Shown piece after piece: positions 245 through 34,162 of a stretch of 35,408 nt of DNA. The translations under genes were made by a program, and so were the position numbers. The stretch lies in contig CAIOAQ010000231.1 of NCBI GenBank assembly GCA_903856025.1, forward strand, positions 1 through 35,408, written 5' to 3'. The number at the start of each line of letters is the position of its first letter. The stretch's first letter is position 1. A model generated the notes under the pieces. That model saw nothing but the letters and a program-made list of their open reading frames with translations, was not told the origin of the DNA and did no database searches. This DNA comes from an uncultured beta proteobacterium (GTDB lineage Bacteria; Pseudomonadota; Gammaproteobacteria; Burkholderiales; Burkholderiaceae_C).

Positions 245-850
245 ATGAATGAACTACCGATGGGCGAAAACGACTACACCACCCGCGATGCTGCCCGCCT
301 GCTGGGTGTCTCAGTACGCACCGTGCAGCTATGGCTTGAAAAGGGTCACCTGCAGGGATGGAAAACCAGCGGCGGCCATCGGCGACTCAAACGCAGTTCC
401 GTAGAGCAAGCCGCACTGGCGCGAAGTCAGGCTCAACCCCAGCCAACCCCAAAAAGATCCTTGAACGTACTGGTGGTGGAGGACAGCACGGCTTTGCTCA
501 AGTTGTATCGCAGCCTGATTTCACGTTGGCCTTTCCCCACCTCCATGTTTACGGCATGCAATGGCTACGAGGCACTGGTAATGGTGGGAAAAGTTACCCC
601 AGACCTGTTGATTTGCGACCTGCGCCTGCCCGGCATTACCGGGTTTCAGGTGGTGCGTGCGCTGTGCGACATGCCACGCTTCAGGCAACTTGCCATCGTG
701 GTGGTCAGCGGCATGCCACTCAATGAAATTGCCGCACATGGCGATTTGCCAAAGGGCGTTCTCACCATGGAAAAACCCATCGATTCAGAACAATTGCAAC
801 ACTTGGCCCAGAAAGTATGGCAAACCCGACGACCAAAAGGGCAAGTTTGA
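245..850 (+). CDS. HTH (MerR/excisionase-type) - receiver response regulator
   Basis: The protein has 201 residues. Residues about 10-55 form a MerR/excisionase-type helix-turn-helix: TTRDAARLLGVSVRTVQLW followed by the GGHRR wing motif. Residues about 73-190 form a CheY-like receiver with an acidic pair (VVEDS), the phosphoacceptor Asp in LLICDLRLPG and a Lys in MEKP. The DNA-binding domain comes before the receiver, the reverse of the usual OmpR/NarL order. It is probably a phosphorylation-controlled DNA-binding protein; its targets are unknown. The gene at 33459-34079 is a full-length paralogue sharing both domains and motifs such as SRWP and PDLLI. There is no good Shine-Dalgarno before 245, and a second in-frame ATG at 260 has none either, so the exact start is uncertain. 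The domain calls are firm; the cellular role is not visible. Confidence 0.9.
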   Translation: MNELPMGENDYTTRDAARLLGVSVRTVQLWLEKGHLQGWKTSGGHRRLKRSSVEQAALARSQAQPQPTPKRSLNVLVVEDSTALLKLYRSLISRWPFPTSMFTACNGYEALVMVGKVTPDLLICDLRLPGITGFQVVRALCDMPRFRQLAIVVVSGMPLNEIAAHGDLPKGVLTMEKPIDSEQLQHLAQKVWQTRRPKGQV

Positions 851-2378: not shown

Positions 2379-4301
2379 ATGGCACTTATCAAAAAATCCA
2401 TCGGCAGCACCACTGCATCCGCTTCTACCGAAACCAGTGGCCGCTCCAGCAGCGCCAACCGTGATGCCGAAGTGCAGCGCAAGCGCGCCCGCACCCTGGC
2501 CAAGCAACAGCAGGCTGCCGAACGCATTGCAGCAGCCACTGGGCAAATGGCCTCTGGCATCGCCGAAGCGGCCTCGGCAGCAGAAGAGCTCAAACGCGCG
2601 ACTGATCAGATTGCCACCGGCGCAGAAGAAGCATCTGGTGCTGCACAGGAATCCTTGGCAGCGTTCAAACAGGTTGAAGGTTCAATCAACCGTCAGCTGC
2701 AAAACGCCGACTTGTCACGCAAACTTTGTGAAGAAACCCAAACCCTGATTCTCAGCACCAGTGCAGACGTGGCCGCCACCGTGGTGAACGTGGGCGTGTC
2801 CGCCCAACGTCAGGTGGCATCGGTGGGCATGGTGGCAGAACTGGAAAAACAAGCCGCCAATATCGGCGACATCGTCAAAGCCGTGGCCCGCATTGCCGAC
2901 CAAACCAACCTGTTGGCCCTGAACGCCGCCATTGAAGCGGCCCGTGCGGGTCAACATGGCAAAGGTTTTGCCGTGGTGGCTGACGAAGTGCGCACACTTG
3001 CAGAAACCTCCGAAAAGAGCGCCAAGCAGATTCAGGACCTGGTAGGCCAGATCCAAAAAGAAGTCAAGGTGATTGCCGACGGTATTGGCGAATCTGCCAA
3101 AACAGTCGAAGGCGAAGTTGAAAATGGCAAGATCATCAGCAAACAACTGGAACAAATCGCCGCTGATGCCGCTGAAATCGTCAAGGGTGTAGGGGAAATT
3201 GCAGTTGGTGCCACCCAGTCTCAAACTGCCGCCCGCCAAGCGCTAAAAGGCTCTGAAGACATTGCCGCTGCCGCGCAAGAACAATCTGCAGCCTCTGAAG
3301 AAGCAGCCAAGACGGTTGCCGAACAGGCCCAGGCGCTGGCCACCAGCGAGCAAACTGCACAACATTTGTCTGAATTGTCTGAAGACCTGAAAAACTCGAC
3401 CGACGTGGCCAAGAGCGCTGAAGAAGTGGCCTCAGCCGCGGAGGAGTTGTCGTCTGCAGTTCAGGAAATCAGCCGTTCAGGCACCCAGATCATGACCGCC
3501 ATTGACCAAATCCGCCGTGGTGCAGATGTGCAGTCTGCCGGTTGCGAGGAGTCATCTGCTGCCATCACACAAATCGAACGCGGCGCCCAGTTGGCAATCC
3601 AGCGTGGCCAGGTCAGTGCCGACAAAGTGGTGGCCATCAAGTCGTTGTTGGGCACCAATAAGAACTCGGTGGATGCGCTGATTACCAACGTACTGAGTTC
3701 CGCTGAATCCAGCAAGGTCAGCATCAAACAGGTCAAAGAGCTGGAACTGGTGTCACGCCGTATTGACAAAATTGTCGATGCCATCACGACTGTGTCGATT
3801 CAGACCAACATGCTGGCGGTCAACGGCTCAATTGAAGCCGCCCGCGCTGGCGAGTTTGGCAAGGGCTTTGTGGTGGTTGCCACCGACATCCGTAACCTGG
3901 CACAAGACTCGGCTGAAAACGCCGACCGCATCAAAGACCTGGTCAAGGCCGTGCAAGACCAGATCGGTGTGGTTGGACGTGACCTGGACGAGATTGTCGC
4001 CACCGCCTTGTCTGAGGTAGAAAAAGCCAAGGCCACCACTACCAATTTGGTGAGCATCGAAACCAGCATGGTGCAGGTGGAAAAAGCCTCTGCCGAAATC
4101 TTGTCTGCAGCCACCGAAATCGGTGCGGCTGTGGTGCAGGTCAAGCGTGGTGTTGAACAAATTTCTGCTGCCGCACAAGAAGCCGCCAAGGCATCTGACG
4201 AAGCGGCCGCCGCAGCCAAACAGCAGTCGCAAGGCGCTGAAGAATTGGCCAGCGCAATCGAAGAGGTCTCCTCTCTGGCCGACGAGCTGCAAAGCGCCTG
4301 A
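2379..4301 (+). CDS. Soluble methyl-accepting chemotaxis protein with two signalling hairpins (DosM-like)
   Basis: The 640-residue protein has no signal peptide and no transmembrane segment; it is almost wholly Ala/Glu-rich coiled coil. It contains two complete receptor tips. The first, around residues 171-200, is canonical ([17 protein letters not shown]). The second, around 469-500, is divergent ([17 protein letters not shown]). Their central Glu residues, E186 and E486, are exactly 300 residues apart. This fits two antiparallel hairpins with arms of about 150 residues joined near residue 336, after a basic, Ser/Thr-rich tail of about 35 residues. Ordinary receptors have one hairpin. The only well-known parallel I can name is DosM of Vibrio cholerae, which stabilises cytoplasmic receptor arrays. 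There is no ligand-binding domain and no C-terminal CheR-binding pentapeptide. The triple-CheW gene follows after 16 bp. A scaffolding role in a cytoplasmic array is inferred. Confidence 0.93.
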
Positions 4302-4317
4302 TTAGGGGGCACTCCAA

Positions 4318-5874
4318 ATGAACAGTGAAACAACTGTAGACGAGACTGGTGCGGATGGCACCGTTGCAGCCGCCCAGACGACTGACACCCGCCAGTATGT
4401 GACCTTTGTCGCAGGCGACGAGGTGTTTGCGGTAGAAATGGCACCGGTGCAGGAAATCATCCGTGTGCCCGATGTGGTACGTGTGCCACTGTCGCCGCCC
4501 ACACTCAACGGCCTGGCCAATTTGCGTGGCAAGGTGCTGCCAATTGTGTCCTTGCGTCGGGCGCTTGGTTTTGCCGAGCGTGCAGCGGACGATTCCTCGC
4601 GCGCCGTGGTTATTGACATCGGCCAACCTTTGGGTTTTGTGGTGGACCGCGTTGCCAGCGTGGTGGGTGTCGAAGCCAGCAAAATTGAAGGTGTGGAAGG
4701 TATCCGTGGCACCGTCAACACCGAGCTGCTCACCGGACTGATCAAAGACATTGGCGGACACGCCATGGTGATGGTGCTCAACTTTGAGAAACTGATTGCC
4801 CAGGAATTTGCCCAAATTGCGGCCATCAGCCGCAGCCAGGGCAATGTGGCCGCACAAGGTCAGGTCAAGAAGGCCAGCGACGATGATCTGCACGCAAGCG
4901 ATACCGAGCTTCATCTGGTGAGTTTTGACGTAGCCGGACAGGAGTACGCCATTGCCATCGAAGACGTGCAAGAAATTGTGCAAATACCAGAGCAAATTGT
5001 GCAAGTACCACACGCCCAGTCCCATGTGCTGGGTGTGATGACACTGCGCAACCGCCTGCTGCCGTTGGTGGCTTTGCGGCGCATGTTTGCCCTGGCCGAA
5101 CAAGATGCAAACGAGCAAAGCCGCATTGTGGTGGTGGCTATTGGCGGTGCATCGGTCGGCATTGTGGTGGACAACGTCAATGAAGTGCTTCGCGTCGCCA
5201 AACGTGATGTCGAAGCCATGCCCACGATGTTGGCCCGCGAAGGCGACATGGCCGACATCACCGACATCTGCCGCCTGGACAAAGGCCAGCGTCTGGTGTC
5301 CATCATCTCCACCGACAACCTGTTCCGCCACTCGGCCATCAAAGAGGCTTTGACCACCGTGAGTGCAAATACCGACTCCACCACCGAATCCACTGCCTCA
5401 CACGACGGCTTGGGCGATGACGAACAAGTGGTCGTCTTCCGCTTGGGTGCTGAGGAATTTGGCGTACCAATTGACAGCGTGCAGGAAATTGTGCGCGTGC
5501 CAGAGACGCTGACCCACGTACCCAAGGCCCCTGCTTCAGTCGAAGGCGTCATCAACCTGCGTGGCAGCGTGTTGCCCGTGGTGGACTTGCGCCGCCGGTT
5601 GGGGCTGGACACCATTGCCCGCAACGATGGTCAACGCATTGTGGTGTTTTTGATTCGTGGCGTGCGCACCGGGTTTATCGTGGATGCGGTGGCCGAGGTT
5701 CTCAAAGTGCCACGCAGCGCCATAGAGCCATCGCCGAGCCTGTCAGCTGAACAGGCCACGCTGCTGGCACGCATGGCCAATCTGGAAAAACAAAAACGCA
5801 TGCTGCAACTGATTGACCCTGCGCATTTGCTTGGAGATGGAGAATTGTCCGGCATGGCAAGTTTGACGGTATAG
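4318..5874 (+). CDS. cheW: CheW-type coupling protein with three tandem CheW domains
   Basis: The 518-residue protein carries three CheW (SH3-like) domains at about residues 23-165, 197-345 and 368-505, roughly 173 residues apart and joined by short polar linkers. Each shows the family landmarks: a start of the type F-x-V/L-x-G-x-E, a VQEI(I/V)-x-(V/I)P segment, then a hydrophobic (N)LR-x-x-(L/V)LP segment (GLANLRGKVLPIV, GVMTLRNRLLPLV, GVINLRGSVLPVV). Standard CheW has one domain of about 150 residues. CheW couples CheA to receptors; three linked copies could bridge several receptor or kinase units in a baseplate. GGGGG lies upstream of the ATG, and the gene follows the double-tip receptor by 16 bp. 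The middle domain is the most divergent (GVMTLRNR instead of NLRG), so the three may bind different partners. There is no frameshift sign. Confidence 0.93.
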   Translation: MNSETTVDETGADGTVAAAQTTDTRQYVTFVAGDEVFAVEMAPVQEIIRVPDVVRVPLSPPTLNGLANLRGKVLPIVSLRRALGFAERAADDSSRAVVIDIGQPLGFVVDRVASVVGVEASKIEGVEGIRGTVNTELLTGLIKDIGGHAMVMVLNFEKLIAQEFAQIAAISRSQGNVAAQGQVKKASDDDLHASDTELHLVSFDVAGQEYAIAIEDVQEIVQIPEQIVQVPHAQSHVLGVMTLRNRLLPLVALRRMFALAEQDANEQSRIVVVAIGGASVGIVVDNVNEVLRVAKRDVEAMPTMLAREGDMADITDICRLDKGQRLVSIISTDNLFRHSAIKEALTTVSANTDSTTESTASHDGLGDDEQVVVFRLGAEEFGVPIDSVQEIVRVPETLTHVPKAPASVEGVINLRGSVLPVVDLRRRLGLDTIARNDGQRIVVFLIRGVRTGFIVDAVAEVLKVPRSAIEPSPSLSAEQATLLARMANLEKQKRMLQLIDPAHLLGDGELSGMASLTV

Positions 5875-6003: not shown

Positions 6004-7092
6004 ATGATCAAACTGTTAATTGTTGACGACTCGGCGCTGATGCGCCGCCAGCTCTCTCAGCTGTTTCAGGCTGAGGGTGACTTTGAGATTCGGCAGGCAC
6101 GCAATGGACAAGAGGCTGTGGACGAAAACCGCAGTTTCAGGCCCGATGTGGTCACGCTTGACATCAACATGCCCGAGATGGACGGCATCACCGCCCTGTC
6201 GCTCATCATGACTGAGCGTCCGGTACCCGTAGTGATGGTCTCGTCACTGACCGAAAAGGGTGCATTGGCCACGTTCGAAGCGCTGAACTTGGGCGCGGTG
6301 GACTATGTGGCCAAGCCCGGTGGCACCATTTCGCTCACGCTGGACCAGATCAAGCCGGATTTGCTGTCCAAGGTACGCGCTGCCGCCCGTGCCAAGCTGG
6401 GCAAAAGCAAGGCCGCCCCCGTCAGGCCAACAAGCTCAGCACAAGGTTTGCGCCAGCGCATGCAAGAAGAGCGTGAGTCCGCCCAGCGCACCGCCAGCGC
6501 CGCGCCTGCGCTGGGCACTGAAGGCGTGTTGCTGATTGGTGTATCCACTGGCGGCCCGCGTGCGCTGGAAACAGTCCTGCCCGCATTGCCCGCCAGTTTT
6601 CCGTGGCCGGTGCTGGTTGCACAACACATGCCGGGCAGTTTTACCGGCCCGTTTGCCACCCGTTTGAACGGATTATGTGAACTCGAAGTCGTTGAAGCCA
6701 ACCGCCCTATGGCGGTGGAGCGCGGCAAGGTTTACATCGGCAAAGGTGGCGCAGACATGTTGGTGACACGTCGTGGCGGCGTGCTGACCGTACTACCCAA
6801 ACCTGAATCGCAAGAGCATTTGTGGCACCCGTCGGTAGAACTGCTGGCACGAAGCGCGCTGGAGTGCATCAAGCCACAACATCTGGTGGCTGTGATGCTC
6901 ACCGGCATGGGTTACGACGGAGCTGATGGTTTTACCGCCATCAAGAACGCCGGTGGGCGCACGATTGCCGAGTCTGAAGAGACTGCAGTGGTGTTTGGTA
7001 TGCCTGCGGTACTCACTGAAAAAGGCGGCGCTTCAGTCGTAGTGCCGCTGGAAAAAGTCGCCACCCAGGTGAAAGCCTGGGCCAACCGCTAA
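6004..7092 (+). CDS. cheB: Protein-glutamate methylesterase CheB
   Basis: The 362-residue, full-length CheB removes methyl groups from receptor glutamates and deamidates glutamines. The N-terminal receiver has D8-D9 and phosphoacceptor D53 (TLDINMPEMDG). A linker of about 50 residues leads to the C-terminal esterase, with the catalytic Ser in GVSTGGP, the His in AQHMP and the Asp in MLTGMGYDGADG. All catalytic residues are present, so phosphorylation by the CheA at 8955 should activate it. It follows the repeat-bearing gap and precedes the HEAT-repeat gene by 15 bp. Its partner CheR is one gene further on, so receptor adaptation by methylation is probably working in this system. Confidence 0.97.
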   Translation: MIKLLIVDDSALMRRQLSQLFQAEGDFEIRQARNGQEAVDENRSFRPDVVTLDINMPEMDGITALSLIMTERPVPVVMVSSLTEKGALATFEALNLGAVDYVAKPGGTISLTLDQIKPDLLSKVRAAARAKLGKSKAAPVRPTSSAQGLRQRMQEERESAQRTASAAPALGTEGVLLIGVSTGGPRALETVLPALPASFPWPVLVAQHMPGSFTGPFATRLNGLCELEVVEANRPMAVERGKVYIGKGGADMLVTRRGGVLTVLPKPESQEHLWHPSVELLARSALECIKPQHLVAVMLTGMGYDGADGFTAIKNAGGRTIAESEETAVVFGMPAVLTEKGGASVVVPLEKVATQVKAWANR

Positions 7093-7107: not shown

Positions 7108-7731
7108 ATGGCCCTGATCAAAAGCAAAATCACCCGCGACACACTGCACTTGCCCCGCAAGCAGGCGCGCGAATGCGTCGATCTGGAGGCCAGCCTGGAT
7201 GACCCCAGTGCAGAAGTACGCCGCTGGGCTGCACGCGACCTGGCCAACTGCCCCAACAGCTCGAAAGCCTTGGTGGCCCGTTTGACAACTGAGCAGAACA
7301 CCTCGGTGCGCGAGGTGATTTTGACCACCCTTACCCACTTGGGCGATGAGGTGGCGGTCGCGGGCCTGGTGGAGTGCCTGCGCAGCGAAGACACAAGCCT
7401 GCGCAATGAAGCCATCGAGGCCATGAAGCAACTCCCAGAGGCGGTGGCACCCATCATGCATGACCTGTTGCATGACACCGACGCCGATGTTCGGATTTTT
7501 GCCGTCAATGTGCTGGAGTCTCTGCGCCACCCTGACGTGGAACGCTGGCTGTGCGAGGTGATCATGCGCGATACCCATGTCAACGTCTGCGCCACTGCGG
7601 TTGACCTGCTCGGAGAGGTGGGTCAAAAGGATGCTCTGGAGCCATTGCACCAGTTGAAAGCCCGGTTTACCGGGGAGCCCTACATCCAGTTTGCCGCCGA
7701 CCTGGCCATCAAACGCATCTCAGAAGACTAA
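7108..7731 (+). CDS. HEAT-repeat protein of the chemosensory cluster
   Basis: The 207-residue soluble protein is built of about five helical HEAT/PBS-lyase-type repeats from residue 25 on. Typical pieces are DDPSAEVRRWAARDLA, NTSVREVILTTLTHLG, DTSLRNEAIEAMKQL and DTDADVRIFAVNVLESL. HEAT repeats are protein-binding scaffolds; no catalytic motif is seen. It sits between cheB and cheR with gaps of 15 and 11 bp, so it is almost surely co-translated with the adaptation enzymes and may tether them or the array. Its N-terminus, MALIKSKI, resembles that of the double-tip receptor, MALIKKSI, although the codons differ. A specific biochemical role is unknown. Confidence 0.9.
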   Translation: MALIKSKITRDTLHLPRKQARECVDLEASLDDPSAEVRRWAARDLANCPNSSKALVARLTTEQNTSVREVILTTLTHLGDEVAVAGLVECLRSEDTSLRNEAIEAMKQLPEAVAPIMHDLLHDTDADVRIFAVNVLESLRHPDVERWLCEVIMRDTHVNVCATAVDLLGEVGQKDALEPLHQLKARFTGEPYIQFAADLAIKRISED

Positions 7732-7742
7732 GGGGCAGCACC

Positions 7743-8579
7743 ATGCCCGCCCCTAGCATCTCGGACGAAGACTTTCACAAATTTCGGGAATACTTTTACC
7801 GGAAAACCGGCATTCAGTTCGAAGTCAGCAAACGCTACTTTGTTGACAAGCGCCTCCTTGAGCGGATGGAGGCGACTGACAACTCGTTGTTCAGAAGCTA
7901 CTTCACCATGTTGCGCTTTCAGGCCTCTGGCGAAGAGTTGCAGACCCTGACCAACCTGATGACGGTCAATGAGACTTATTTTTTTCGCGAGGAATACCAG
8001 TTCAAGTGCCTGGTGAATTCGATCTTGCCACTGCTGACCGAAAAGAAACGCGACCAAAGCCCCATCCGGATCTGGGTGCTGCCGTCCTCATCGGGGGAAG
8101 AGCCTTACTCGATTGCCATTTACCTTCTGGAAAAGTGGGCGGATATCAACCACTTTGATGTAGAAATCATCGCCTCAGACATTGATACCCACATTTTGGA
8201 GCATGCCAAGCGAGGTTTGTATTCGGAACGGTCTGTCGGACAGTTGCCCAAGCAGTACTTGTCCAAGTACTTTCGTCGTGTCAGCGAGTTTTACAAAATA
8301 TCGGATGACCTGCGTGGCGCGGTGGAGTTCACCCGTGTCAACCTGTCGGAGCCTGCCGACACGCGGCCTTATCGCAATTTTGACGTGGTGTTTTGCCGCA
8401 ATTTGTTGATTTATTTTGACGACTTGTCACGCAAAACTGCCGCTGAAACCTTTTATGACGCGCTCAAACCGGGCGGATTCATTTGCTTGGGGCACTCCGA
8501 GTCGATGAGCCGCATTTCGTCGCTCTACAGAGTGCGCAAGTTCCCAGAAGCCATCGTTTACCAAAAGCCTTCGGAGTAA
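7743..8579 (+). CDS. cheR: Chemoreceptor methyltransferase CheR
   Basis: The 278-residue, full-length CheR transfers methyl groups from S-adenosylmethionine to receptor glutamates. The N-terminal helical domain holds the TYFFRE motif. The Rossmann domain holds PSSSGEEPYSIA for SAM binding, the acidic IIASDID strand end, and VVFCRNLLIYFD. GGGGC lies before the ATG, 11 bp after the HEAT-repeat gene, and the next cheY follows after 7 bp. Neither receptor in the window ends in an NWETF-like pentapeptide, so methylation would rely on direct recognition of the helices. Confidence 0.97.
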   Translation: MPAPSISDEDFHKFREYFYRKTGIQFEVSKRYFVDKRLLERMEATDNSLFRSYFTMLRFQASGEELQTLTNLMTVNETYFFREEYQFKCLVNSILPLLTEKKRDQSPIRIWVLPSSSGEEPYSIAIYLLEKWADINHFDVEIIASDIDTHILEHAKRGLYSERSVGQLPKQYLSKYFRRVSEFYKISDDLRGAVEFTRVNLSEPADTRPYRNFDVVFCRNLLIYFDDLSRKTAAETFYDALKPGGFICLGHSESMSRISSLYRVRKFPEAIVYQKPSE

Positions 8580-8586
8580 ATAAGTT

Positions 8587-8958
8587 ATGAAACGCATACT
8601 GATCGTTGACGATGCCGCCACCGTTCGCATGTACCACCGCCAGATCCTGCAAGGCGCTGGCTACGAGACCGAAGAGGCTGTCAACGGCATTGAGGCACTT
8701 GAGAAGGCGCTGGAAAACCCGTTTGACCTGTACCTGGTGGACATCAACATGCCCAAGCTCGACGGCTATGGCTTTTTGCGCGAACTGCGCAAGCAGGATG
8801 TGCCCCAAGCTCCGGCTATCATGATCTCTACCGAGTGCGCCGAAGGTGACCGCACCCGGGCTTATGCTGCCGGTGCCAACCTGTACATGGTCAAGCCCAT
8901 GAAGCCCGAGCAGCTGCTACAACCGGTCGCATTGTTTCTAGGGGAGCTTGAAGCATGA
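8587..8958 (+). CDS. cheY: CheY-like response regulator
   Basis: The 123-residue single receiver domain has D8-D9, phosphoacceptor D52 in LVDINMPKLDG, Ser/Thr in MISTE and Lys in VKPMKP. Its stop codon overlaps the cheA start by 4 bp (ATGA), which implies translational coupling and makes it the likely main phosphate acceptor of that CheA. Whether it acts on a flagellar motor, a pilus or another output cannot be told; no flagellar or pilus genes lie in this window. Confidence 0.93.
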   Translation: MKRILIVDDAATVRMYHRQILQGAGYETEEAVNGIEALEKALENPFDLYLVDINMPKLDGYGFLRELRKQDVPQAPAIMISTECAEGDRTRAYAAGANLYMVKPMKPEQLLQPVALFLGELEA

Positions 8959-11699
8959 ACGAACTGCTAGAGCAGTTTCTATCCGAAGCGCGCGAAGCGC
9001 TTGAAGGCATTGGGGCGATGCTGATGGCGCTTGAAAACGCGCCTGACGACACTGAACTGATGGCACAGCTGTTCCGGCTGGTGCACACCCTCAAGGGCAA
9101 CAGCGGGCTGTTCGATTTTCCGGAAATGACCCGTGTGCTGCACGCCGGTGAAGACTTGATGGACGCGGTGCGCAACCATCGTGTTGCTTACTCACAGGGG
9201 TTGGCAGATCGTCTGCTGGATGCCATGGATTTTGTGGGCATGCTGTGCGACGACATCGAACATCAAAAACCGGTCGATCCAAGCACAACCGAAGACGCGG
9301 TCGCCCTGGCGGTGGGATTGCGCGCCTTGATTGGCCAAACTACCAGCGCATCGGTTGCACAGGCAGACAAGCCGCTTGCGCCACCCGACGCAGCCCATGC
9401 GCAAGCGCAAACGGTTGATGTAGCCGCTGCGCCCTCGGTAGCCGCATCTACCTTGGCTCGTGTTCCCGAATCGGTGCGCCTGCAAGCCTGGAGCCGGATA
9501 CAAGGCGGCGAAACTTTGCATTGGCTGCGCTACCGTCCGGCAGAAGAATGCTTTTTCCAGGGTGAAGACCCGCTGCACCAGGCCAAGCTGACCCCCGGTT
9601 TGCTTTGGGGCGGCATGGCCGCACGTGCCGAATGGCCCCCCCTGATAGAACTTGATGCCTACCGCTGCATGCTCGACTTTGAGCTGCTGGTGACTGCCGG
9701 CCGCACGGAGTTGCTGGAACACTTTCGCTATGTGCCTGATCAGATTGAGGTGATCGAAGTCGCCCCACTGCAGTTGGTCACACCCCAGGGCGACCCCAAT
9801 GGTGGACCGGTGTACGAAGATTTTGTCAGCGATGCGCTTGGTTTTCTAAGCCGCAATGACCGCCCCGGCTTGGCACGTGCGGTGCGTTCGCTGCTGGACT
9901 TGTCCAGTCCAAGCTTGTGGTTGTCGTCCGCTTTGCGCTGGCTTTCTGCGTTGCTGGAGAGTCCAAGCGTGTCTGTGGCGGAGTTGCGCGCACTGGTTGA
10001 GTCTCTGCGCAATTTTGATACGCCAAATTGGCCCGTACCCCACGTAGAAGCTGAGCATAAAGCTATCATAAACGTAGCGATTGAACAGCCTGTATTGGTT
10101 CAAGCCCTCCCAGCAACTGCGCCAGCGCCTGAACCCAGCAACGCCCGCCTGCAAGCCGTTCTGACGGTTGTGGCAGTGCAGCGCCAAATTTTGGCTTTGC
10201 CCGATGATCCGGTGCTGGTAGTTGGACGCCTGAAAGCTGTGCTGGTGGCGCTTACCGGCTGCCTGAGGGCCTGCGGGCGTAGTGACGACATTTCGGAGCT
10301 CACCCAGGTTGCACATGCCGCCATGCAAGCACAGCAAGCCCTGGCGCTTGCACAGTGGCTCGATGCCGCCTTCCCAGACGATGAAGTTGCAGCACCACCG
10401 GTTCAAACCGAAAGCATCGCCCAAGTCGAGCCTGTGGCTGCGCTGCCCGTAGAACAACCGCTGGCCAGCGCAGACACGCCTGAGCCAGAGGCGCGCTTTG
10501 GACGGCGCTCTGAGGACAATGCCAGTGTCAAGAGCCTCAAGGTTGATCAAGAAAAAATCGACCGGCTGATGAACCTGATTGGCGAGATGGTGGTGGCCAA
10601 AAACGCCATCCCTTACCTTGCCAACCGCGCCGAGAACGTGTTTGGCGTGCGTGAACTCTCACGCGAAATCAAGGCGCAGTACGCGGTGATCAACCGCATC
10701 TCGGAGGAAATGCAAGATGCCATCATGCAGGTACGCATGATGCCGGTGTCGTTTGTGATGCAACGCTTTCCCCGCCTGGTGCGCGATATCTCACGCCGCC
10801 TGGGTAAAGATGTCAATCTGGTCATGGAAGGCCAGGAAACCGCGGCAGACAAAAACATCATCGAGTCGCTGGGCGACCCGCTTGTGCATATTGTGCGCAA
10901 CAGCCTTGACCACGGGCTTGAGATGCCAAATGTGCGTCTAGCCCTTGGAAAACCTGCACAAGGCACTCTTAAAATAATAGCAAAGCAGGAATCAGACCGG
11001 GTGTTGATTGTCATCAGTGACGACGGCAAAGGCATTGACCCGCAGGTTATCAAACAAAAGGCCTACCAAAAAGGCTTGATCGACGAGCACCAGCTTGACC
11101 GAATCAGCGATTCCGAGGCCATCAACCTGATCTTTGCAGCCGGCTTCTCCACCGCAGAGGTCATCTCTGACCTGTCGGGGCGCGGCGTCGGCATGGACGT
11201 GGTGAGAACCGCCGTCGAGCGGGTCAACGGCACCATCCAACTCGAAAGCGTCAAGGGCCAGGGCACCACGCTAACCTTGTCATTGCCACTGTCGATGGCG
11301 GTCACCAATGTCATGACCGTCGCCTCTGATGGCCAGATGTTTGGCGTGCCGATGGAAGCGGTGGTGGAGACCGTGCGGGTTGCCGGCGACAACATCCGAA
11401 CCATCAAACAACGCCAGGCGACGGTGCTGCGCGGGCGCATTGTGCCGCTGCTCTCACTCAACCGTCTGCTTGGACTGGCCGCACCACCACTTGCCAATGA
11501 CAGCGGTGAGCTCGCAGTGCTGGTCGTGCGCCTGGGTGAAGAAACCGTGGGCCTGCTGGTGGACCAATTCCACGGCACAGCCGACATCATTTTGAAACCC
11601 CTGGGCGGGGTCTTGGGCCAGCTAAAAGCCTACAGCGGCTCGGCCCTGATGGGCGACGGCTCGGTGCTGATGGTGCTCAACCTCAAGGAGATGCTCTGA
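8955..11699 (+). CDS. cheA: Chemotaxis histidine kinase CheA with long P1-P3 insert
   Basis: The protein has 914 residues, against about 650-700 for typical CheA. The P1 HPt domain carries H44 in LVHTLKGNSG. Residues about 183-290 (around LRYRPAEECFFQGEDPL and DAYRCMLDFELL) look like a P2-type response-regulator-binding domain. Residues about 300-500 are mostly helical and unassigned. P3 dimerisation begins near 528 (KIDRLMNLIGEM). P4 has the N box with H645 (HIVRNSLDHGLE), G1 (DDGKGID) and G2 (GRGVGMD), so catalysis should be intact. P5, the CheW-like domain, fills about 780-912. It overlaps cheY by 4 bp and the small STAS-like gene by 1 bp. It should phosphorylate the nearby CheY proteins and CheB under control of the receptors through the triple CheW. 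Confidence 0.96.
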   Translation: MNELLEQFLSEAREALEGIGAMLMALENAPDDTELMAQLFRLVHTLKGNSGLFDFPEMTRVLHAGEDLMDAVRNHRVAYSQGLADRLLDAMDFVGMLCDDIEHQKPVDPSTTEDAVALAVGLRALIGQTTSASVAQADKPLAPPDAAHAQAQTVDVAAAPSVAASTLARVPESVRLQAWSRIQGGETLHWLRYRPAEECFFQGEDPLHQAKLTPGLLWGGMAARAEWPPLIELDAYRCMLDFELLVTAGRTELLEHFRYVPDQIEVIEVAPLQLVTPQGDPNGGPVYEDFVSDALGFLSRNDRPGLARAVRSLLDLSSPSLWLSSALRWLSALLESPSVSVAELRALVESLRNFDTPNWPVPHVEAEHKAIINVAIEQPVLVQALPATAPAPEPSNARLQAVLTVVAVQRQILALPDDPVLVVGRLKAVLVALTGCLRACGRSDDISELTQVAHAAMQAQQALALAQWLDAAFPDDEVAAPPVQTESIAQVEPVAALPVEQPLASADTPEPEARFGRRSEDNASVKSLKVDQEKIDRLMNLIGEMVVAKNAIPYLANRAENVFGVRELSREIKAQYAVINRISEEMQDAIMQVRMMPVSFVMQRFPRLVRDISRRLGKDVNLVMEGQETAADKNIIESLGDPLVHIVRNSLDHGLEMPNVRLALGKPAQGTLKIIAKQESDRVLIVISDDGKGIDPQVIKQKAYQKGLIDEHQLDRISDSEAINLIFAAGFSTAEVISDLSGRGVGMDVVRTAVERVNGTIQLESVKGQGTTLTLSLPLSMAVTNVMTVASDGQMFGVPMEAVVETVRVAGDNIRTIKQRQATVLRGRIVPLLSLNRLLGLAAPPLANDSGELAVLVVRLGEETVGLLVDQFHGTADIILKPLGGVLGQLKAYSGSALMGDGSVLMVLNLKEML

Positions 11700-11935
11700 T
11701 GGCCATCGAATTCAAGAAAAAGCTCGCACTGTTCGGCGAAACGGTTGGCGTTGAAGACGCTGAAACGCTTTTGGAATGGCTGCAAGGCAAAGCCAACGCC
11801 CGTGTAGATTTGTCAGCTTGTGTCCATCTGCATCCGGCTAACATTCAAGTATTGTTGGCCTCCAAGGCTCAAATCAGCGCCTGGCCGAAAGATCAGGTTC
11901 TGCACGCTTGGTTGCAAACCATTTTTACTGTTTGA
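11699..11935 (+). CDS. Small STAS-like protein next to cheA
   Basis: The 78-residue soluble protein has a central stretch RVDLSACVHLHPANIQVLLA. Its strand, polar turn and helix pattern resembles the core of STAS (anti-sigma-factor antagonist) domains, but it is shorter than a full STAS domain of about 100 residues. The ATG shares its A with the cheA stop (TGATGG), so translation must be coupled to cheA. The N-terminus is basic (MAIEFKKK). A Ser stands in the position usual for the STAS phosphorylation site (DLSA), which would fit a kinase-controlled partner switch; this is inference. It may be an adaptor for the array. Gene reality is likely; the family call is tentative. Confidence 0.7.
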   Translation: MAIEFKKKLALFGETVGVEDAETLLEWLQGKANARVDLSACVHLHPANIQVLLASKAQISAWPKDQVLHAWLQTIFTV

Positions 11936-11956: not shown

Positions 11957-12331
11957 ATGGCAAAAAAAATTCTGATTGTTGACGACTCGATGACGATGAC
12001 CATGAGCGTCAGATCGACCCTTCAAATGAATGGGTTTCAAGTCGAAACGGCCTCTGATGGGGTCCAGGCATTGATCAAACTCAAAGGCGGCTTGAAGCCA
12101 GACCTGATCATCACCGACATCAACATGCCCAACATGGGAGGGCTTGAACTCATTAAAAATATCAAAGCGCTGCCCGGCTTAAGATTCACGCCCATCCTGA
12201 CACTGACCACCGAGAGCGACCCCGCCAAGCGTGACGAGGGCAAGCGCCTGGGGGCCACCGGGTGGCTGGTCAAGCCGGTGTCGGGTGCCGATCTGGTGAA
12301 AGTGGTCAAGCAGGTCGTGCCTGGGGCCTGA
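11957..12331 (+). CDS. cheY: CheY-like response regulator
   Basis: The 124-residue single receiver domain has D9-D10 (VDDSMTM), phosphoacceptor D54 in ITDINMPNMGG, Thr in TLTTES and Lys in VKPVSG. AGAGGA precedes the ATG. It is the third stand-alone receiver of this gene train, after those at 1887 and 8587. The middle of the protein (PGLRFTPILTLTTESDPAKR) resembles the short PilG/CheY-type regulators common next to receptor genes. It may be a competing phosphate sink or a second output. Confidence 0.93.
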   Translation: MAKKILIVDDSMTMTMSVRSTLQMNGFQVETASDGVQALIKLKGGLKPDLIITDINMPNMGGLELIKNIKALPGLRFTPILTLTTESDPAKRDEGKRLGATGWLVKPVSGADLVKVVKQVVPGA

Positions 12332-12367: not shown

Positions 12368-13615
12368 ATGCTAGCCCTTAAGATAAAAACCTTCCCATCG
12401 CGCGTTGGACTGGTGTCCATTGCCATCAGCATCACCATTTTGGTGGCGATCGCGCCCTGGATGCATGAGGTGGCGATGCCGGCAATCGGTTTGGACATGC
12501 CCTGGGATGTTGCGGCCGAACTGGTGCTGGTTTTTGTGATGTCGTCGCTGCTGACAGCGGCGATCCGATATGGATTTAAGTTACCTGCAACCGATGAATG
12601 GTTGACGGGAACAGGCAACCTGGTGATTGAACACATGGTGACCGAAATCCGCCAGGTCGGCCCCTATCTGGATGTGATGAACCAGCAGCTCGAAGGCGCC
12701 ATCAAGGGGACCGAAGAGGGCGTGCTGGCACTGATCACGTCACTCAATACGATTCACGCCGTCTCCGACGAGCAGCTGAACCGTATACGAGCTTCCGAGG
12801 ACAGCGGAGCCGAGTTGTCAGCCGCACTCAAAGAAAAAATGCTGGTGGACAAACAACTGGGTTCGATCCTGCAAATGTTTGTAGAAAAGCAAGACCAGGA
12901 CGTTGAAGTCAACATCGGACGCATCAGACGCCTGCAGGAAGTCAAAAGCCTCACGGTGCTGGTGTCCGAAATCTCTCAAGTGGCCAAGCAAACCAACATT
13001 CTGGCCATCAACGCCGCGGTTGAAGCCGCCCGTGCGGGAGACGCCGGACGAGGTTTTGCGGTGCTGGCTGCAGAAATACGGCTGCTGGCCAACCGCACGG
13101 CCGAAGCAGCAGTGGCGATCTCGGCCAAAATCAAGTCCGCCACTGACGGTATTGATGAAGAATTGAAAAATGCCAGTGAGGTGCAAGAACGCAGCTCTGC
13201 CACCGGCACCATGCGCGGCGTGATCGCCAGCATTGATGACATGCAGCAGCGCTTTGCCCATGCCTCCAAAACCTTGATTCAGATCATCGACGGGGTAAAG
13301 ACCGGGCATCAGGAAATCCTGATGGGCCTGTCTGATTCGTTGGGACAAATCCAGTTTCAGGATGTCATCCGTCAGCGGGTTGAGCATGTGGAACAGGCCC
13401 TGGCTGAGCTCAACAATCACTTGCAAGAAATGGCTGACCAGACCCGTGCCAAGCCCTTTGGCCGCGCACCTGTCGTCACGCTGAAACAGCGCCTGGACGA
13501 CCAGCTTGGCCGCTACGTGATGCAAAGCCAGGTCGACACACACCAAAGCCGCACCGGCCAAACCAGCGCCGCTGCGCAAGCTGCAGATGAGCGACCAAAG
13601 ATTGAACTTTTTTAA
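12368..13615 (+). CDS. Membrane chemoreceptor-like protein with CheZ-like motif
   Basis: The protein has 415 residues. Two transmembrane helices at about 12-31 and 47-66 enclose only about 15 residues, so there is no periplasmic sensor domain. A cytoplasmic helical region follows, with a receptor tip around 203-240 ([20 protein letters not shown], central E219). About 110 residues later comes [20 protein letters not shown]332 and Q336 in QDVIRQ match the D-x-x-x-Q pattern of the CheZ phosphatase active site. The protein ends with a polar tail and no CheR pentapeptide. It follows cheY by 36 bp and precedes the ParA gene by 5 bp. It may sense the membrane or cytoplasm, or act as a receptor-like phosphatase; the second idea is inference. 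Confidence 0.88.
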
Positions 13616-13620
13616 TACCT

Positions 13621-14379
13621 ATGGCACGCATACTGGTCATCAGCAACCGCAAGGGCGGATCGGGCAAATCATCTACCTCAGTCAATGTGGCCGCAGAGCT
13701 GGCGGCCAGACGGCAACGGGTGCTGGTGATTGACCTGGACAGCCAAGGCCATTGCGCCTTGGGGCTGGGCGTCAAGCTGGAGCGTCAGGCCCCCACAGTG
13801 CACGGATTTCTGGCTGGACGGCATGACCTGCGCCCTGCGCTGACACACACCGCTTGGCCTGATCTGGACCTGATTGCGGCTGACCCGCTGTTTGAACACG
13901 GCATGGCCACCGACCGTGAAACCATGCTGCGTGATGCGTTGTGCGCCGAGGGACTTCACGAAGCGTATGACACCATCGTGCTGGACACCCCGCCTTCGCT
14001 GGACGGCTTGCTGATGAACGCCCTTTGCGCAGCCGACCGGGTGCTGGTGCCCTTTGTGCCTCATTTTTTGTCGGGCGAAGGCGTACGCCAACTCGCCCGG
14101 GTGCTGTTCAAGGTTGCCAGTAAAGGCCTGAACGAGCACCTCAAAGTGTTGGGCTTTTTGCCGGTGATGGTCGACCTGCGCATAGGTCAGCACCGTGAGG
14201 TCAGCGCCAGCCTGTCGCACCAGTTTGGCGCGGCGCGTGTGTTGCCCGGCATTCGCACCGACATCAAGGTGGCCGAAGCATTTGCCGCTGGCAAGCCGGT
14301 GCGTTGGTACGCGCCCAGCAGCCGGGCCAGTACCGACTATGCCGCTGCGGTGCAGGCGCTGGAAACACTTTGGGCGTGA
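13621..14379 (+). CDS. ParA/MinD-family ATPase, probable array-positioning protein
   Basis: The 252-residue protein has the deviant Walker A motif RKGGSGKSS, with signature Lys K11 and P-loop Lys K16, Walker A' VLVIDLDSQG and Walker B TIVLDTPPS. This is the ParA type, which dimerises on ATP and binds DNA non-specifically. There is no parB and no centromere-like repeat nearby, so plasmid or chromosome partition is unlikely. Orphan ParA proteins in chemosensory operons, ParC in Vibrio and PpfA in Rhodobacter, position polar or cytoplasmic receptor clusters. The presence of a soluble double-tip receptor favours the PpfA-like role. It begins 5 bp after the membrane receptor with no clear Shine-Dalgarno, so it is probably translationally coupled. 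Confidence 0.93.
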   Translation: MARILVISNRKGGSGKSSTSVNVAAELAARRQRVLVIDLDSQGHCALGLGVKLERQAPTVHGFLAGRHDLRPALTHTAWPDLDLIAADPLFEHGMATDRETMLRDALCAEGLHEAYDTIVLDTPPSLDGLLMNALCAADRVLVPFVPHFLSGEGVRQLARVLFKVASKGLNEHLKVLGFLPVMVDLRIGQHREVSASLSHQFGAARVLPGIRTDIKVAEAFAAGKPVRWYAPSSRASTDYAAAVQALETLWA

Positions 14380-33139: not shown

Positions 33140-33462
33140 GTGCTCCGATAGATCAGAACCTGATCAAAAAAGTTGGCCATGTATGGTTCGCTGAGATCAG
33201 CACCTTCGAAAATTTCAAGGAGTCGGTGCGCAGCATGCGCGGCGTCATCCGCAACTTGTTCGTCGGATCTGGGATCATCAAGATCCACATCGACAAACTC
33301 TGCGCGATGCGCAATCAACTGGTTTATGTTTTCCTGAGTCAACACAAGACCTGCCGGCAAAGTCATGCTCAGAAAACCTTGCTGGGAAATTTGCATAGGC
33401 GCACTGATCACCATGCCTGGCAACGCCTGTTCGATTGGGAGATAGTGATGTCGTTTTTTCAT
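33136..33462 (-). CDS. Small protein resembling the N-terminal domain of HD-GYP proteins
   Basis: The 108-residue soluble protein has a first half (PIEQALPGMVISAPM, then LPAGLVLTQENINQLIAH and RAEFVDVD) following the pattern seen N-terminal to many HD-GYP phosphodiesterases (DUF3391-like: pGM, G-x-x-L-T, then a V-x-V strand). The second half is helical and acidic, ending in a FFDQVLIYRS helix. It overlaps both neighbours by ATGA, between the HTH-receiver regulator and the HDOD protein. It may be a split-off partner of the HDOD protein, supplying the domain that HD-GYP enzymes carry in cis. The family call is from pattern memory and needs a profile search. Confidence 0.75.
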   Translation of the reverse strand: MKKRHHYLPIEQALPGMVISAPMQISQQGFLSMTLPAGLVLTQENINQLIAHRAEFVDVDLDDPRSDEQVADDAAHAAHRLLEIFEGADLSEPYMANFFDQVLIYRST

Positions 33463-34079
33463 GAGATTTGGACATCACTTTGACTCGCAATGGCACTGGC
33501 AACTGCGAGCAATCGATCGAACGGAATCGGTTTTGGCAACACTTCCATACCCTCAGGCAAACCGCCTTTATCGGCAATAGCTTGTGCATCCAAACCAGTC
33601 ACCACAACAATCTTTGTATGACGCACTTCCGGTGCAAGCTTGAGCAGTCGCAACATGCTGAATCCGTCCATGCCGGGCATGTGCAAGTCGACAATCAGCA
33701 AGTCTGGACCGCCTCTGCCCAACGCCATCAACGCTGAAACTGAGTTGTCGGTGCAGGTAACCAACGGCTGCATTGGCCAGCGTGACAAGTTCGCTTGGTA
33801 CAGGCGCAACAGGTCAAGGTCATCGTCGACAACCAGAACGCTGAGTTTGCGTGGCTGAGCCTCGGACTTGGTGTGCAACGTGGACTCAACTGGTGCTGGT
33901 GCCTTGCGAAGCAACCGCTCGACCGAATCGCGCATGACGCGGCGGTGCCCCCCCGCCGTCTTCCACGCCTGCAACAAACCATTTTCGACCCAAAGCTGAA
34001 CCGTTCCCACCGAAACCCCCAGCAAGGCAGATGCTTCACGCGTGGTGCAAAAGGATTTCTCAACGGCTACTGAGGACAT
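33459..34079 (-). CDS. HTH (MerR/excisionase-type) - receiver response regulator, paralogue of 245
   Basis: I chose ATG at 34079, with GGAG 9 nt upstream, which gives 206 residues; the open frame reaches 34121, but that part lies in the probable leader. Residues about 8-55 form the helix-turn-helix (TTREASALLGVSVGTVQLW and GGHRR). Residues about 77-195 form a receiver with acidic residues in VVDDD, phosphoacceptor Asp in LLIVDLHMPGMDG and Lys in LPKPI. It matches the regulator at 245-850 over its whole length. It is the first gene of the minus-strand train, directly behind a strong sigma70-type promoter, so it may control its own operon. Phosphodonor and target sites are unknown. Confidence 0.93.
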   Translation of the reverse strand: MSSVAVEKSFCTTREASALLGVSVGTVQLWVENGLLQAWKTAGGHRRVMRDSVERLLRKAPAPVESTLHTKSEAQPRKLSVLVVDDDLDLLRLYQANLSRWPMQPLVTCTDNSVSALMALGRGGPDLLIVDLHMPGMDGFSMLRLLKLAPEVRHTKIVVVTGLDAQAIADKGGLPEGMEVLPKPIPFDRLLAVASAIASQSDVQIS

Positions 34080-34088
34080 ATAACAAAT

Positions 34089-34092
34089 CTCC
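34089..34092 (-). promoter_or_regulatory. Ribosome binding site fixing the start at 34079
   Basis: GGAG on the minus strand lies 9 nt before the ATG at 34079. The earlier possible start at 34121 has nothing similar in front of it. Confidence 0.5.
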
Positions 34093-34162
34093 GACAGTTC
34101 AAGCACAAAGCCATGTGGCACACGGTATCTTTGATAAACACCTTTGTCATGGCATTTGCAAA

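Follow-up and report, generated by a model that had tools for sequence, protein, structure and literature searches.

A triple-domain CheW adaptor beside a double-tip receptor in a beta proteobacterial cluster assigned to chemosensory class F9

What use does a chemosensory array have for three CheW domains on one polypeptide? The question is raised by a 35,408-nucleotide stretch of DNA from an uncultured beta proteobacterium (contig CAIOAQ010000231.1 of assembly GCA_903856025.1; the whole stretch is hereafter termed the window), in which the original prediction, made from the sequence alone, placed a coupling protein with three CheW domains directly downstream of a receptor with two signaling tips. 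A standard CheW has one domain, as that prediction rightly held; the triple form is nonetheless normal in chemosensory class F9, which is defined by the receptor DosM and a concatenated triple CheW (VC1403/VC1402) together with two baseplates (PMC7534058). The adaptor has been named CheW3, and DosM and CheW3 are the two signature components of the class (PMC9321776). The window gene almost certainly encodes the adaptor of such a system, of the Vibrio cholerae cluster I type. It is complete and unremarkable for its family, and its kind is already known. The best explanation overall, which we consider very probable, is that it is the CheW3 of a full cytoplasmic F9 system and works within one baseplate.

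The reading of three complete CheW domains in a single frame is borne out by every approach applied to the open reading frame. PF01584 (the Pfam CheW family) matches the protein in three separate stretches (whole-protein E 2.8e-95), and each domain taken singly (100.7, 109.8, and 129.6 bits, respectively) passes the curated cut-off of 23.5; the borders and bit scores in Table 1 derive from a CheW HMM built in this analysis. In the AlphaFold2 model, disordered linkers separate three CheW folds, each with about ten strands, and Foldseek matches this model to solved CheW structures. The linkers (residues 166-195 and 342-365) fall mostly below pLDDT 50 and the pTM is 0.50, so the model gives no fixed arrangement of the domains. 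Across the family, the linkers have median lengths of 25 and 24 residues (ranges 21-50 and 19-42). The third domain (D3) is the one most similar to single-domain CheW.

Table 1. Coordinates of the chemosensory features in the window.
Feature	Position	Strand	Description
dosM-type receptor	2379..4301	+	640 aa; PF00015 (MCPsignal) in two stretches
cheW3	4318..5874	+	518-aa adaptor, three CheW domains; ORF with ATG start; PF01584; AlphaFold2 model
CheW domain D1	4378..4827	+	aa 21-170; NLRG kept; 209.9 bits
CheW domain D2	4903..5349	+	aa 196-344; TLRN replaces NLRG; 219.1 bits
CheW domain D3	5413..5859	+	aa 366-514; NLRG kept; 219.0 bits
cheB	6004..7092	+	PF01339 and PF00072
HEAT-repeat protein	7108..7731	+	PF13646; between cheB and cheR
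cheR	7743..8579	+	PF01739, PF03705
cheY	8587..8958	+	single-domain response regulator before cheA; ORF; homolog in 78/78 loci
cheA	8955..11699	+	914 aa; Hpt, dimerisation, ATPase, and P5/CheW-like domains
STAS-like small protein	11699..11935	+	78 aa; in-frame ORF overlapping the cheA stop
cheY2	11957..12331	+	single-domain response regulator; PF00072; homolog in 74/74 loci
second receptor	12368..13615	+	single-tip; PF00015; in 56/74 loci
ParA-like ATPase	13621..14379	+	cluster end; ORF; in 42/68 loci

The upstream receptor, which ends 16 bp before cheW3 (position 4301 to position 4318), exactly as had been described, also has the double-tip character ascribed to it: besides its two MCPsignal stretches, it carries the tip motif EAARAG at residues 186 and 486, i.e., 300 residues apart. 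AlphaFold2 predicts two helical hairpins (residues 24-339 and 343-639) joined at residues 340-342, and no sensor domain was found in this receptor. DosM (VC1403) likewise has two MCP signaling tips and no recognized sensor domain; the window receptor differs in that its sequence is from another lineage. In a motif search, the tip-to-tip spacing was exactly 300 residues in all 83 receptors counted, a constancy that amounts to no net insertion or deletion between the tips.

The window holds CheW3, DosM, and the full set of CheA, CheB, CheR, and CheY of an F9 system, in the order dosM, cheW3, cheB, HEAT protein, cheR, cheY, cheA, small ORF, cheY, receptor, parA. Other chemosensory classes and flagella, the usual (although not strictly defining) company of F9, also occur in the genome, where five CheA-type dimerisation domains, one FliG, and 39 MCPsignal matches were detected. 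As in V. cholerae, the concatenated triple CheW adjoins DosM, and the distance from cheW3 to cheA is five genes in the window, while the V. cholerae locus numbers, VC1402 to VC1397, are also five apart (PMC7534058). Unlike VC1402, the window protein comes from another lineage, its nearest named relatives being Burkholderiales; the proposed orthology to VC1402/VC1403 draws on architecture, neighboring genes, and the literature, V. cholerae being absent from the collected loci. Horizontal transfer of F9 clusters is frequent (PMC9321776).

Several of the remaining genes recur across F9 loci. The HEAT-repeat protein (∼207 aa) is found in 78 of 81 loci, and is missing from two alphaproteobacterial clusters. 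The gene at the cheY position is annotated as a response regulator in a related locus, and two others (L032 and L036) carry an annotated ParA family protein at the place equivalent to the cluster end. An ORF of 78-87 residues overlapping the cheA stop (e.g., L031 16910-17152) occurs in 72 of 74 loci, where it is annotated as hypothetical and is weakly STAS-like; in the window, its STAS_2 matches are likewise weak and lie under the curated cut-off. This small ORF may be an unrecognized core component of F9. Toward the window ends lie two mutually similar proteins with an HTH and a receiver domain (245-850, forward strand; 33459-34121, reverse strand), read by eye from the ORFs, with a Pfam check covering the 245-850 protein. 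Between the two are genes for a hybrid kinase and for PAS-GGDEF-type and HD-type response regulators, and from these gene assignments a c-di-GMP output near the F9 cluster is possible.

The triple CheW and the double-tip receptor proved to be associated, as the original prediction had proposed, and the association was already published: DosM and CheW3 occur together in 72 of 2,781 species, as 64 full and 8 partial clusters (PMC9321776). Our survey reproduces it in both directions. The 80 named contigs, related whole genomes, and seven plasmids examined yielded 95 triple-CheW ORFs (82 non-redundant proteins, a few of the ORFs being one contig reached by two routes). Cultivable relatives such as Giesbergeria anulus, Rhodocyclus tenuis, and Methylobacter tundripaludum are represented among them. 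A DosM-type ORF is adjacent in all 95 loci, with both tips readable in 90, a count that speaks to one direction only, the loci having been picked by CheW3 similarity. For the reverse direction, 101 related genomes were searched with both proteins, and DosM and CheW3 were found in the identical nine genomes (only in part in G047), with matches far above the next best; an incomplete genome (G053) has only a 77-residue piece of DosM. Of the five loci with a one-tip DosM ORF, four have it cut by a contig edge; in the fifth (L070), an internal shortening fuses tip 1 to the C-terminus, which is probably a collapsed assembly repeat. One cheW3 (L109) has a frameshift between the second and third domains. 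The order CheB-HEAT-CheR-CheY-CheA-small ORF is retained in 73 loci. One locus (L113 7982-11536) has dosM and cheW3 as a two-gene unit with no other che genes nearby, resembling the published partial F9 clusters. A Burkholderiales contig (L049) carries two cheW3 genes, at 2690-4336 (reverse strand) and 10019-11590 (forward strand), each with its own double-tip receptor, and the genome G005 likewise has two CheW3 genes.

Whether the three domains are equivalent was addressed with a tree of the domains of 81 non-redundant CheW3 proteins and single CheWs. Each position forms a clade, with support of 0.52 (weak) for the first domain (D1), 0.99 for the second (D2), and 0.89 for D3, the last including the split-off D3 of L109; these clades persist after the addition of alphaproteobacterial members (∼35% identity), although one Sphingobium D3 strays. 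Since D1, D2, and D3 group across genomes, the triplication is ancient, and its positions have stayed distinct. This phylogeny is consistent with the fixed stoichiometry or the distinct domain roles suggested for a linked set, and fixed, distinct roles for D1, D2, and D3 seem likely. A protein on the Marinitoga okinawensis plasmid pMO1 (L122 4435-5742) also has three CheW domains, but shares only ∼20% identity and its domains fall outside the three groups; its gene neighbors are a c-di-GMP phosphodiesterase and a whole receptor with one tip, so that this triple CheW lacks a double-tip neighbor. It is probably an independent concatenation.

In E. coli CheW, a Glu38-Arg62 salt bridge aligns the receptor and kinase sites and is needed for function (PMC3828127). 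All three F9 domains share the E. coli fold and the equivalents of both residues, which are present in 99-100% of D1, D2, and D3 (E. coli numbering). They differ from the single-domain E. coli protein at interface 2, where R117 and F122 of E. coli lie in the connection that joins core units (PMC5181776): position 117 is E or D in ∼95% of the F9 domains, vs. K or R in most single CheWs compared, and the F122 position is mostly I or L. In the P5 domain of F9 CheA, the A546 position is occupied by K in 94% and the E557 position by R in 74%. Aligned against E. coli only, this looks like a charge reversal at interface 2 that could separate F9 arrays from others. In four alphaproteobacterial CheW3 proteins (L034, L035, L119, and L120, from Agrobacterium vitis, Rhizobium sp. 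L51/94, Novosphingobium, and Sphingobium), D1 lacks ∼25 residues, equivalent to E. coli 121-143, while D2 is complete; in the Sphingobium protein, D3 was also matched poorly. The interface-2 residue F122 falls within the lost segment, and so D1 probably makes no interface 2 in this alphaproteobacterial branch, to judge from the alignment. This is paralleled by FrzB of Myxococcus xanthus, a CheW-like protein that has lost one partner surface, although FrzB is a single-domain protein in its own right, and the segment it has lost is not that of D1.

The reading that comes closest to rivaling work within one baseplate would split the domains by partner, one taking DosM, one the single-tip receptors, and one mainly CheA P5, with the linkers enforcing a mixture of receptors. 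We regard it as possible but on the unlikely side. The separate lineage of each domain position favors it, as do the single-tip second receptor of the window, the alphaproteobacterial D1 deletion, and the arrangement in V. cholerae, where DosM occupies every other trimer and the remaining trimers are other receptors (PMC7534058); against it, the equivalents of Val36, Glu38, Arg62, Gly99, and Val105 are present in all three domains, and the second receptor is absent from 18 of 74 clusters. A more speculative proposal, to which we give rather little credence, is that the three modules are fixed, specialized stations in the ring, in which the acidic residue 117 of all three would face a basic patch on P5 and so insulate the F9 baseplate from the other arrays of the cell, with D1 released from interface 2 in some family members.

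D2 had been singled out as having lost the NLRG pattern and as perhaps structural only. Part of this description stands: N60 is replaced by T or S and G63 by N, S, or Q in almost all copies (TLRN in the window), Q takes the place of R40 in 96%, and P52 has been lost, all of which would suit a spacer without a binding role. Yet 99% of middle domains retain the arginine of the motif (E. coli R62) and Glu38, and the window D2 has both despite its TLRN (residue table). The equivalents of Val36, Gly57, Gly99, Asp103, and Val105 are likewise retained, and the D2 fold in the AlphaFold2 model is complete. A spacer-only middle domain is thus improbable, and we rejected it on the conservation of Glu38 and Arg62.

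It had also been suggested that CheW3 might link the two receptor tips, which would put a domain at each baseplate, and the adjacency of cheW3 to a two-tip receptor in every locus collected, along with its several CheW modules, is what such a bridge would lead one to expect. The geometry speaks otherwise. The linkers, of about 20-30 residues each, total ∼54 disordered residues in the model. Allowing 0.36 nm for each residue and 4-5 nm for one domain, arithmetic gives a fully stretched reach of about 24 nm from D1 to D3. The two receptor tips, 300 residues from each other along the chain, lie in opposite baseplates, which in the cytoplasmic arrays of V. cholerae are ∼35 nm apart (PMC3964821), and one CheW3 should therefore not serve both; moreover, the layers are already spanned by DosM itself (PMC7534058). 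Bridging is very improbable and was rejected on linker length. That the triple gene arose by tandem duplication in recent times, or as an artefact of assembly, has next to no likelihood, the window being from a fragmented draft genome of 592 contigs, but the matching architecture occurring in 95 loci that include named isolates and complete plasmids (on which count an artefact was rejected), and the domains having diverged before the family spread, grouping across genomes and not within one.

The preferred reading therefore keeps CheW3 within one baseplate, where neighboring positions of a lattice spaced at 12 nm should be well within its reach. DosM would form a rod with a signaling tip at both ends, one tip for each of two parallel CheA/CheW baseplates, an arrangement shown by others in V. 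cholerae and which we infer here by homology. CheW3 would act inside one of these baseplates as three CheW modules strung on flexible linkers, its domains most likely filling several adjacent CheW positions, either in the CheA-P5/CheW rings or in CheW-only rings; this placement follows from the geometry and from the array structure of E. coli and Thermotoga. One chain would then staple adjacent receptor trimers and kinases together, stabilizing an array that lacks an organizing membrane, and we hold such in-plane stapling to be an evenly balanced proposition. The three modules are not interchangeable copies, each position being a lineage conserved on its own: D3 stands nearest to an ordinary CheW, D2 combines an altered NLRG turn with the Glu38-Arg62 pair, and D1 can dispense with the interface-2 region, as some alphaproteobacteria show.

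Little is understood of F9 arrays, for which no clear phenotype or stimulus is known (PMC7534058), and we found no study in the literature of why F9 needs a triple CheW or of what each domain binds. Because each domain position has a conserved identity of its own, the need for a triple CheW can be put to the test. Furthermore, if the charge reversal at interface 2 holds true, it would reveal the means by which several CheA systems in one cell keep their baseplates apart.
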